Positions 7,454-9,885 of a stretch of DNA of 58,480 bases are shown here, one piece after another. Where the stretch lies: assembly GCA_026416195.1 (NCBI GenBank), contig JAOAFQ010000093.1, forward strand, positions 1-58,480, in the 5' to 3' direction. A program made the position numbers and the translations under genes. Source of the stretch: Candidatus Aminicenantota bacterium. GTDB lineage: Bacteria > Acidobacteriota > Aminicenantia > Aminicenantales > CALLJL01. Under the pieces are notes generated by a model. The model made no database searches and had not been told where the DNA came from. It worked only from the letters and a program-made list of their open reading frames with translations. How positions within the stretch are numbered: the stretch's first letter is position 1; the number at the start of each line of letters is the position of its first letter.

Positions 7454-7645
7454 ATGAAATATAAAGTTCGTCTCTTAAAATTAGATAATGGCTATGCTGT
7501 TTGGGTTCCTGGAATTCCAGGGTGTTCGACCTTTGGCCGGACTCGGGAGGAAGCCTTGGATAAAATCAGATCGGTTCTTTTGGCCTATCTCGAGGCTTTG
7601 GATGACGACGAAAGTGGTCTTGAGTCTAGCACTGTTGAGATTTAA
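7454..7645 (+). CDS. Orphan HicB-like antitoxin-fold protein
   Basis: A 63-residue protein with the HicB-like partial RNase H fold: MKYKVRLLKLDNGYAVWVPGIPGCSTFGRTREEALDKI, then an amphipathic helix and an acidic tail (LDDDESG). A GGAGG site at 7444-7448 is five bases before ATG 7454; the ATG at 7450 runs into a stop after four codons. There is no HicA-like ORF on either side, and no C-terminal DNA-binding domain, so this is a stand-alone member, a class common in genomes and without a defined role. Confidence 0.75.
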   Translation: MKYKVRLLKLDNGYAVWVPGIPGCSTFGRTREEALDKIRSVLLAYLEALDDDESGLESSTVEI

Positions 7646-7742: not shown

Positions 7743-8096
7743 ATGGCCAATCGATTGGAAGAATTTCAGGCTTATCGAGAAAAGATGAACCGCAAAATTT
7801 TACGCTGTGGCCATTTAGGCATCAAAAGATTCTTTAACCTTGATTCGGCTGCCTATCGTGAGGCTGCCCTTTCGAGTAAAATCAAAGAACTTCTCGGCCT
7901 TGTGGCCTCTACCGTTCTCCGTTGTAATGATTGCATCGATTATCATCTCATCCAGTGCGTCAAAGCAGGCTGGAAAGATGAAGAAATTTACGATGCTTTG
8001 AATGTCGCTTTAATCATTGGGGGAAGCATTGTTATTCCTCATCTGCGACATGCCTTCGAAACTTTAGAACTTCTCGGCCGAGAAAAATCACCTTAA
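7743..8096 (+). CDS. Carboxymuconolactone decarboxylase / AhpD-like family protein
   Basis: A 117-residue all-alpha protein. The AhpD/CMD core is present: IKELLGLVASTVLRCNDCIDYHLIQCVKAG, with the redox pair C-x-x-C followed by a histidine three residues on, then the EEIYDALNVALIIGGSIVIPH helix. In AhpD this cysteine pair takes part in peroxide detoxification relays; other members are uncharacterised. A strong AAAAGGAGG site lies before ATG 7743. It lies next to the VKOR-DsbA region, so a thiol-redox role fits, but that is inference. Confidence 0.85.
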   Translation: MANRLEEFQAYREKMNRKILRCGHLGIKRFFNLDSAAYREAALSSKIKELLGLVASTVLRCNDCIDYHLIQCVKAGWKDEEIYDALNVALIIGGSIVIPHLRHAFETLELLGREKSP

Positions 8097-8106
8097 AATT
8101 AGTTCC

Positions 8107-8361
8107 TTAAATAAAAGGGGAAAACCGAATAATCCAGTTCAGATAAACTTCGATTACTATGCACTGAGAAAAAAGAAGGTCGCATTGCTGCAGAGCTAAT
8201 GCCATGGTCAACCACCCTTTGCTTTGGTTCATTGCTTCTTCGCGACATTTTTCATAAACTTGGTAACAAAAAGAAAACTCATCTGCCCATAAACATAAAA
8301 AAGAACCAACGCCTCCAAAGAACCAAATTAGCAGTAAAATTAAAATAACCGATTTTTTCAT
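8107..8361 (-). CDS. Small secreted protein with twin CX6C motif
   Basis: An 84-residue protein that I do not recognise. A lysine start and a hydrophobic stretch ending near LCLWA|DE look like a signal peptide. The mature part has four cysteines as two CX6C pairs (C32/C39 and C60/C67), each within a predicted helix, like a small disulfide-locked helical hairpin. A GGAGGTG ribosome site precedes ATG 8361, supporting a real gene. It is transcribed divergently from the VKOR-DsbA fusion across a 288-bp gap. Confidence 0.65.
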   Translation of the reverse strand: MKKSVILILLLIWFFGGVGSFLCLWADEFSFCYQVYEKCREEAMNQSKGWLTMALALQQCDLLFSQCIVIEVYLNWIIRFSPFI

Positions 8362-8489
8362 CTTTTCACCTCCAGCAAAGTAAAAGCAAATTCTGGGCCA
8401 GTTTTAAAGGTAGTTTTGACTTGTCTTCAGGCAGCCAAAGGCCTTTCTTGGCCATGAATCTTTAAGTTAAAGTCACAGAATGTGATCTC

Positions 8490-8565
8490 AGGTCACTTCG
8501 ATGACTTAGCTTTATTAATAAAAAAACCAATTTAACCTTTTAAGGTCTCAAATTGTGACCTTAAA
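8490..8565. promoter_or_regulatory. Candidate operator: 9-bp inverted repeat plus an extra half-site
   Basis: TTTAAGGTC (8539-8547) and GACCTTAAA (8557-8565) form a perfect 9-bp inverted repeat with a 9-nt spacer, 27 nt before the -35 box of the VKOR-DsbA gene. A further AGGTCAC copy (8490-8496) is the inverse of GTGACCT at 8555-8561. Placement between two divergent genes suggests a regulator-binding site; this is inference. Confidence 0.4.
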
Positions 8566-8592
8566 GGCGAACCAGGAAAGAAAATTCTTTGA

Positions 8593-8620
8593 TTGACGAA
8601 AAAAAATCGTCTTATATAAT
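8593..8620 (+). promoter_or_regulatory. Predicted sigma70-type promoter of the VKOR-DsbA gene
   Basis: TTGACG (8593-8598) and a perfect TATAAT (8615-8620) are spaced 16 nt apart, 30 nt before the preferred start codon at 8650. The best consensus promoter seen in the window. Confidence 0.65.
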
Positions 8621-8649
8621 GACCATAAAAACTATTAAGGAAATTGAAA

Positions 8650-9885
8650 ATGAAGGATAAAAGAGAGTTGGCACTTCGCTTGGGCCTCTTTTTGGCTGGC
8701 TGTGGCCAGATTGTTTTCTCGCTTTTAACTATTCGGCATTTTTTTCTAGCTAATTTTCCAGCCACAATTTTCCGTGGTTCTTTTTGTGATTTTTCGGCCT
8801 TTTTTAACTGTGATAGCTCAGCTTTTTCCCCCATAGCTCACTTTCAAGGCGTTCCTCTAGGCTATTTTGGTCTGATCATCGGAATTGTTTTTTGCTTAGG
8901 CTCGGTTTTCCCTTCACCTCGATGGGACAGAACTAATTCTTTTTTAAGTTTCTGGAATCTGGTTGGGGTAGTTGGCCTTTTGCTTTATTCTCTGTTTTAT
9001 TTAAAAAGTCTTTGTCTTCTTTGCAGTGGATATTATTTCTTTTCCATTATAGCCTTTGTTCTTTGGCTAATGTTGAATCGAACTCAGCGACTCCGCTTAA
9101 CCCATTTTACCCGCCCATCACTTGCCCTTCTTTTTACTTTAGCCATTTTTACAGCCTCAGGAGCGTTCGGTTTTCACCTTTTTTATCAAGCCAAGAAAGA
9201 AGCTCATATTGGTCGGGCCATGAAAGCCGTTAAGGAATTTTACGAGTTGCCTTACACTCATTATCCCAGCCTTCTTTCGCCAGCTTGGATAATTCGATCT
9301 ACCGAGCGCTTTGAAGAAGCTCCTATCCAGTTGGTTGTCTATGGAGATTTTCTTTGTCCTGATTGCCAATTTCTGGCAAGGCAATTGGAAAAAATGAAGG
9401 AGGAATTTCCAGGCAAAATTAATGCCCTTTTCCAATTCTTCCCCCTAGAAAATCGTTGCAATCAAGTAGTTAATAAAAATCTTCATCCCGGGTCTTGTGA
9501 CCTCTCTTATCTTGCTGCCTATATTGCCCTCTATCGGCCAGAAGAATTCCCACAGATTCACCATGAAATTTTCGCCAATATGAGGGCGGCTCGAAGCGCC
9601 GAATGGCGTCTTGATCTTGCCCGAAAATATGAAGCTGAAGAAGCTTTCACTGATCCCAATGTCCAGTCATTGGTTCATCAGATCATAGAAACAGGAAAGG
9701 AATATGAAAGGACATCTGAACGTTATCCCTACGGAATTCGTTCAACCCCAACTGTCATTTTGAACAACCGAATGATTATTGGCACCCTCCCTGATTACCA
9801 ACTGCGGGCTATTTTTGAGGCTCTTATTGAAGAAAAACAAACCGGAAGCCGTCGTTTTCTGGAAAACTGGGTCCCTTTGAGATAA
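8650..9885 (+). CDS. VKOR-DsbA fusion: vitamin K epoxide reductase domain with C-terminal thioredoxin-fold oxidoreductase
   Basis: A membrane disulfide-generating enzyme of about 411 residues. Residues 1-180 form the four- to five-helix VKOR domain, with a periplasmic-loop cysteine pair (SFCDFSAFFNCDSSAFS) and the quinone-reducing CLLC pair (C122/C125). From about residue 215 there is a DsbA/thioredoxin-4-like domain with active site CPDC (C236/C239) and the cis-proline segment STPTVILNN. Known VKOR fusions pass electrons from substrate thiols through the Trx domain to quinone, replacing DsbB-DsbA. The ATG at 8650 fits the AAGGA ribosome site better than the in-frame TTG at 8644. Confidence 0.92.
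   Translation: MKDKRELALRLGLFLAGCGQIVFSLLTIRHFFLANFPATIFRGSFCDFSAFFNCDSSAFSPIAHFQGVPLGYFGLIIGIVFCLGSVFPSPRWDRTNSFLSFWNLVGVVGLLLYSLFYLKSLCLLCSGYYFFSIIAFVLWLMLNRTQRLRLTHFTRPSLALLFTLAIFTASGAFGFHLFYQAKKEAHIGRAMKAVKEFYELPYTHYPSLLSPAWIIRSTERFEEAPIQLVVYGDFLCPDCQFLARQLEKMKEEFPGKINALFQFFPLENRCNQVVNKNLHPGSCDLSYLAAYIALYRPEEFPQIHHEIFANMRAARSAEWRLDLARKYEAEEAFTDPNVQSLVHQIIETGKEYERTSERYPYGIRSTPTVILNNRMIIGTLPDYQLRAIFEALIEEKQTGSRRFLENWVPLR

Follow-up and report, generated by a model that had tools for sequence, protein, structure and literature searches.

The window, meaning the whole stretch of 58,480 nucleotides that was analysed, is one contig (C151) of a 2.88-Mb draft genome (here G000) whose relatives are Aminicenantes-type metagenome assemblies. 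Aminicenantes are a largely uncultured lineage, known almost only from metagenomes. Two divergent genes, their ATGs 288 bp apart, occupy the locus described here: one encodes a small, probably exported protein with two CX6C cysteine pairs and the other a VKOR-DsbA fusion. The first-pass annotation had described an 84-aa reading frame with a signal-peptide-like start and two CX6C pairs, divergent from VKOR-DsbA, and all of these elements were present. The features of the locus are as follows.

7743..8096, plus strand: AhpD-like carboxymuconolactone decarboxylase with a CNDCIDYH motif.
8107..8361, minus strand: twin-CX6C secreted mini-protein, ATG start, 84 aa; predicted signal helix followed by a predicted helical hairpin; orphan member of its family.
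8386..8400, minus strand: sigma54 -24/-12 promoter TGGCCCAGAATTTGC, 39 nt upstream of the mini-protein ATG; GG/GC element with correct spacing.
8472..8486, no strand assigned: candidate activator dyad A, GTCACAGAATGTGAT, centred ~105 bp upstream of the inferred mini-protein transcription start; conserved in the sister genome G001.
8492..8496, no strand assigned: additional GTCAC half-site next to dyad A; conserved in G001.
8545..8559, no strand assigned: candidate activator dyad B, GTCTCAAATTGTGAC, the core of the inverted repeat at 8539-8565; centre 73 bp from that of dyad A.
8593..8620, plus strand: sigma70-type promoter of VKOR-DsbA, TTGACG-N16-TATAAT, 11 of 12 consensus positions; conserved in G001.
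8650..9885, plus strand: VKOR-DsbA fusion, 411 aa, ATG at 8650; VKOR loop CDFSAFFNC, then CLLC, and DsbA CPDC.

The mini-protein has cysteine pairs Cys32-X6-Cys39 and Cys60-X6-Cys67, with a further cysteine (Cys23) inside its hydrophobic leader. The leader was judged to be a signal peptide by eye and from the predicted N-terminal helix, and the helix may also stay uncleaved and act as a membrane anchor. No sequence match to the mini-protein was obtained in Pfam, NCBIfam, PADLOC or the PDB, and a comparison of mini-proteins with Pfam at E values up to 1, the NVEALA model included, returned none. The neighbouring AhpD-like gene lies beside the mini-protein and VKOR-DsbA genes in both genomes of this genus and is absent at VKOR-DsbA elsewhere; further along, at 7454-7645 of the window, is a small HicB-like antitoxin-type protein (PF15919).

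Relatives of the mini-protein were found in 21 of 59 related genomes by a single-sequence search and in 31 of 80 genomes of the order by a profile search. A phylum-wide sample of 396 genomes restricted the family to this order, plus one weak partial match. A contig scan with the profile of a narrower alignment (A3) yielded 18 credible loci, almost all of them from records that carry an Aminicenantes label or are placed in that lineage, together with one weak match in a 'Bacteroidetes' bin that spanned 18 residues and did not keep the cysteine frame; a search for members in viral contigs and plasmids found none. In every aligned member a short basic, hydrophobic leader is followed by an invariant C-X6-C-X20-C-X6-C, a frame that the window gene also satisfies. 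Thus the cysteines singled out by the first-pass annotation are conserved among homologues, in a frame that is not due to chance, and we conclude that the mini-protein represents a true Aminicenantes family, so far unnamed, for which Pfam and NCBIfam have no model. Contigs labelled 'Clostridiales bacterium' (loci L111, L114) also carry Aminicenantes family genes; these contigs match G010, a genome placed in this order, and the organism label on the records looks wrong.

There is also a second subfamily (CFAEFERC...DCExxLxxC), which shares the CX6C pairs and, in the wide loci that were read, stands at the head of an operon of the same type. Its profile recovered ten strong members and cross-matched the first subfamily as well, and an exact sigma54 element (discussed below) preceded 8 of the 10 genes. 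Between this element and the ribosome-binding site, second-subfamily genes L186, L188 and L204 (and others among L184-L192) have an apparent short inverted repeat, for example GCTCGCGAGC. Two more diverged twin-CX6C genes lie at L177:6378-6861, 3' of a consensus sigma54 promoter and 5' of another six-bladed propeller gene, and this pair is a possible third subfamily.

G000 contains two family members, the window gene and a canonical gene on contig C49, and G001 likewise has two. The window protein is only ~20-41% identical to its relatives (41% to its G001 counterpart) and has an extra hydrophobic C-terminal tail. It and the G001 counterpart are orphans, in that neither is the first gene of the propeller/thioredoxin-like operon that the C49 copy heads, and in a tree of 47 short sequences these two VKOR-adjacent copies grouped together, with a long-branch companion. 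Because it stands outside the operon, has low identity and carries the extra tail, the window copy may differ in function from its relatives.

For both the window protein and the G001 operon protein, AlphaFold predicted a helical hairpin after the leader, with a core pLDDT of ~90. The best PDB neighbours in Foldseek were plant alpha-hairpinins and vicilin-buried peptides (9q1l: rmsd 0.5 Å over 34 columns, probability 0.97), all of them short hairpins stapled by disulfides, with E-values above 1 and thus not significant; we therefore treat this likeness as an analogy of shape only.

The sigma54 element upstream of the window gene has a counterpart in G001, TGGCCTAAAAATTGC at -41, and recurs in most of the family. 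The pattern TGGC-N7-TTGC, mostly 41-42 nt before the ATG, was found at 32 of 43 distinct family genes; among the other ORFs of these loci it preceded 3 of 369, one of the three being itself a family-like gene; many of the family genes without the element are second tandem copies. The sigma factor is encoded, with rpoN present in G000 (G000:C64) and in 78 of 80 genomes. Regulon scans of G000, which were pattern searches, gave seven matches to TGGCAYGN4TTGC, the promoter of the operon copy among them, and zero for the control. Other consensus sigma54 promoters in this genome (L135, L137-L141) precede a type IV pilin-like gene, further exported proteins and two TonB-dependent-receptor-like proteins whose start is of carboxypeptidase-regulatory type, which suggests that sigma54 may govern the cell exterior in G000.

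The shared upstream region also contains the perfect 9-bp inverted repeat TTTAAGGTC-N9-GACCTTAAA reported by the first-pass annotation, which we confirmed at 8539-8565. The proposal that this exact site recurs elsewhere in the genome did not hold up: it is the sole exact copy in the 2.88 Mb, and copies with two or three mismatches were no commoner than those of a reversed control, so that the exact repeat was rejected as a genome-wide operator. What is conserved is a shorter unit. The gap holds two copies of a 15-bp core dyad, GTCWCA-N3-TGWGAC, at 8472-8486 (one mismatch) and at 8545-8559, and alignment of the gap between G000 and G001 showed two kept islands amid drifted flanks, namely GTCACAGAATGTGAT / GTCACACTTTGTGAT with the nearby GTCAC, and GTCTCAAATTGTGAC / GTCTCTAAGTGAGAC. 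The TTTAAG arms of the perfect repeat are not conserved in G001, whereas the GTCWC...GWGAC core is.

The same dyad, at 11-12 of 12 positions, occurs upstream of the promoters of the operon copies in G000, G001, G009 (12 of 12) and G041 (where the sigma54 element has one mismatch), and none of 500 shuffles was as good in any of these four. Since the window and G001 sites were the source of the motif, which was extended after the other sites had been seen, only the four operon promoters are near-independent tests. Across G000, dyads with at most one mismatch numbered seven, and the control had one; the two family genes account for three of the seven, and the rest are in or near unrelated genes. 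Dyads were not found at the other consensus sigma54 promoters of G000. Most promoters of family f6 also lack one, and that family probably has a different activator. The window dyads are 73 bp apart and lie ~105 and 178 bp from the inferred start, distances that fit sigma54 activator sites, and the dyads are best read as candidate binding sites of such an activator.

The setting in which family members are usually found was read in up to 18 kb of surrounding sequence, in genomes that are all drafts. The order is mini-protein (sometimes a tandem pair), six-bladed beta-propeller (PF17170, 7e-14), and a CXXC thioredoxin-like protein of AhpC-TSA / StoA-like type with an export-type N-terminus; in many loci two ABC genes come next, for a permease that has no Pfam family and for an ATPase. 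When downstream genes were sought by tblastn at 32 distinct loci, the propeller and the thioredoxin-like protein were each found at 29, the permease at 18 and the ATPase at 17. Propeller and thioredoxin-like genes are lacking at three loci, those of the window gene, of its counterpart in G001 and of an orphan in G041. A permease profile was strong (E below 1e-35) in 20 genomes, of which 18 were family-positive by profile search; in the two exceptions (G042, G077) the operon has no recognised first-subfamily gene or ends at a contig edge.

Taken together, we consider it probable, as regards anatomy and regulation, that the window gene is a divergent paralogue, standing as an orphan, within a new family of Aminicenantes secreted mini-proteins, with a predicted sigma54 promoter and two putative activator dyads upstream. 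An enhancer-binding protein on the two dyads would activate sigma54 polymerase at the mini-protein promoter, and the product would be exported by Sec. Its cysteine pairs, each two helical turns apart, would close into two disulfides (C32-C67 and C39-C60, by geometry) that staple the two antiparallel helices. In the home operon the mini-protein would be made together with the propeller and the CXXC thioredoxin-like protein, the latter handling its disulfides, and the ABC-2 type transporter, where present, would export the mini-protein or protect the producer. Judged from operon content, the family is most likely a secreted disulfide-locked peptide that serves as a signal or resembles a bacteriocin and has dedicated helpers for redox and transport, a view we hold with much less assurance than the anatomy and regulation. 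More broadly, and tentatively, Aminicenantes may use a previously unknown extracellular peptide system in which sigma54-commanded, disulfide-stapled helical hairpins of several subfamilies are each made with a beta-propeller of their own, acting as receptor or chaperone, a thioredoxin-like partner for folding and, in many cases, an ABC transporter.

One explanation for such an operon is that the hairpin is bacteriocin-like and inhibits rival bacteria, with the ABC-2 transporter conferring immunity and the thioredoxin-like protein folding the peptide. In its favour, the product is a small exported four-cysteine peptide with tandem divergent copies and a fixed cysteine frame, and the ABC ATPase resembles DrrA and lantibiotic-protection ATPases, with scores below the cut-off. 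However, the leader is signal-peptide-like and not of the double-glycine type, no bacteriocin model in Pfam or NCBIfam was matched, and the permease was not found by tblastn in 11 of 29 operons, so that an exporter or immunity gene is not always present. The beta-propeller is also left unexplained, and we regard a bacteriocin-like role as possible but rather unlikely.

A role that we find equally doubtful is one in upkeep of the envelope, in which the hairpin would belong to the cell exterior, as a structural element or a signal, and the propeller would recognise it. This would agree with the propeller being, with the thioredoxin-like protein, the most constant partner, and with the pilin-like, TonB-dependent-receptor-like and other exported proteins that follow the other consensus sigma54 promoters of G000. 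Nevertheless, the operons are without known adhesin, pilus or polymer genes, and the dyads were not found at those other promoters.

The first-pass annotation had instead proposed that the mini-protein is a dedicated substrate, redox relay or regulator of the VKOR system. Its emphasis on disulfide chemistry is well supported, because the cysteines do not vary and a CXXC thioredoxin-like protein is a close companion of the family (29 of 32 loci), whereas VKOR as the dedicated partner is unsupported. The neighbour itself is a genuine VKOR-DsbA (Pfam VKOR, 4e-11; Thioredoxin_4, 7e-9), and all 20 VKOR loci examined keep the VKOR loop cysteines together with CLLC and C[PS]DC. It was present in 23 of the 25 genomes tested, family-positive or not, and occurs without the family in G002, G005 and G008. 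The expectation that the two genes stay together across related genomes failed, in that homologues of the mini-protein lie away from VKOR-DsbA in every examined genome outside the genus. An extra divergent family copy beside VKOR-DsbA was found only in the two genomes of this genus, and the other 18 VKOR loci, with flanks of ~1.5 kb or less, had no twin-CX6C gene; adjacency across genera was accordingly rejected.

It could still be argued that in this genus the mini-protein is dedicated to the adjacent VKOR-DsbA and that the repeat is a shared operator. In both species of the genus that have been sequenced, the AhpD-like, mini-protein and VKOR-DsbA genes are still adjacent despite the low identity of the mini-proteins, and dyad B is ~100 bp from the VKOR-DsbA start codon. 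We find this improbable, given that no other VKOR-DsbA locus examined shows the adjacency, that VKOR-DsbA exists without the family and that dyads also precede family operons far from VKOR. Moreover, the two promoters differ in type (sigma54 for the mini-protein, sigma70 for VKOR-DsbA), which makes a shared operator a poorer account of the repeat than activator sites serving a single gene. Taken alone, the hexamer pair of VKOR-DsbA is a consensus match not beyond chance, and its weight lies in its conservation in G001. Because VKOR-DsbA is present with or without the family and had no twin-CX6C neighbour in the other loci examined, it is best seen as a general oxidase, which would probably supply disulfides to the mini-protein as to other exported proteins. 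The best reading is that it is at most a general oxidase for the mini-protein and that the adjacency is local to this genus and does not underlie the family as a whole. Least likely of all is that the four cysteines bind metal or act as a redox relay and form no structural disulfides, since, despite the constant thioredoxin-like partner, the cysteines of both predicted helices are spaced i,i+7, as suits disulfides between the helices and not the usual CXXC metal or redox motifs, and apart from one Asp neither a His nor another set of ligands is conserved.

The secreted mini-protein family offers a testable gene system for Aminicenantes, with a constant four-cysteine secreted peptide, its promoter, likely activator sites and operon partners, and the recurrent thioredoxin-like partner provides a dedicated disulfide step for study. 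If the peptides act extracellularly, they would constitute a new class of hairpin in bacteria, locked by disulfides and produced on command through sigma54.

Several known systems resemble parts of this one. Small exported peptides of Bacteroidetes (NVEALA, PF14055) adjoin DUF5128-type six-bladed beta-propeller genes, which we take as a lead only, having found no paper on it. Mitochondrial CHCH / twin-CX9C and twin-CX3C proteins are helical hairpins with twin CXnC pairs that are oxidised by a dedicated disulfide relay; in contrast, the spacing here is 6 and not 9 or 3, export would be by a signal peptide, and no PDB sequence is matched. Plant alpha-hairpinins and vicilin-buried peptides (Jug r 2, VBP-8, Luffin P1, BWI-2c) are likewise small exported four-cysteine helix-turn-helix proteins, the hairpin being predicted in our case. 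Their motif is C-X3-C-Xn-C-X3-C (PMC11591084), whereas the present family is bacterial, shows no sequence similarity to them and has X6 spacing throughout, C-X6-C-X20-C-X6-C. Bacterial VKOR proteins fused to a thioredoxin-fold domain are known (PMC4555120; for VKOR/DsbA, PMC11208910), and the neighbour, which shares their VKOR loop cysteines, CXXC and DsbA CPDC, is an ordinary member not specifically tied to the mini-protein. Finally, known sigma54 promoters have the consensus TTGGCATNNNNNTTGCT together with enhancer-binding-protein sites (PMC6615313); the target genes of this family are absent from the descriptions of such systems in the papers searched, but they share with them the -24/-12 element and upstream palindromic sites.
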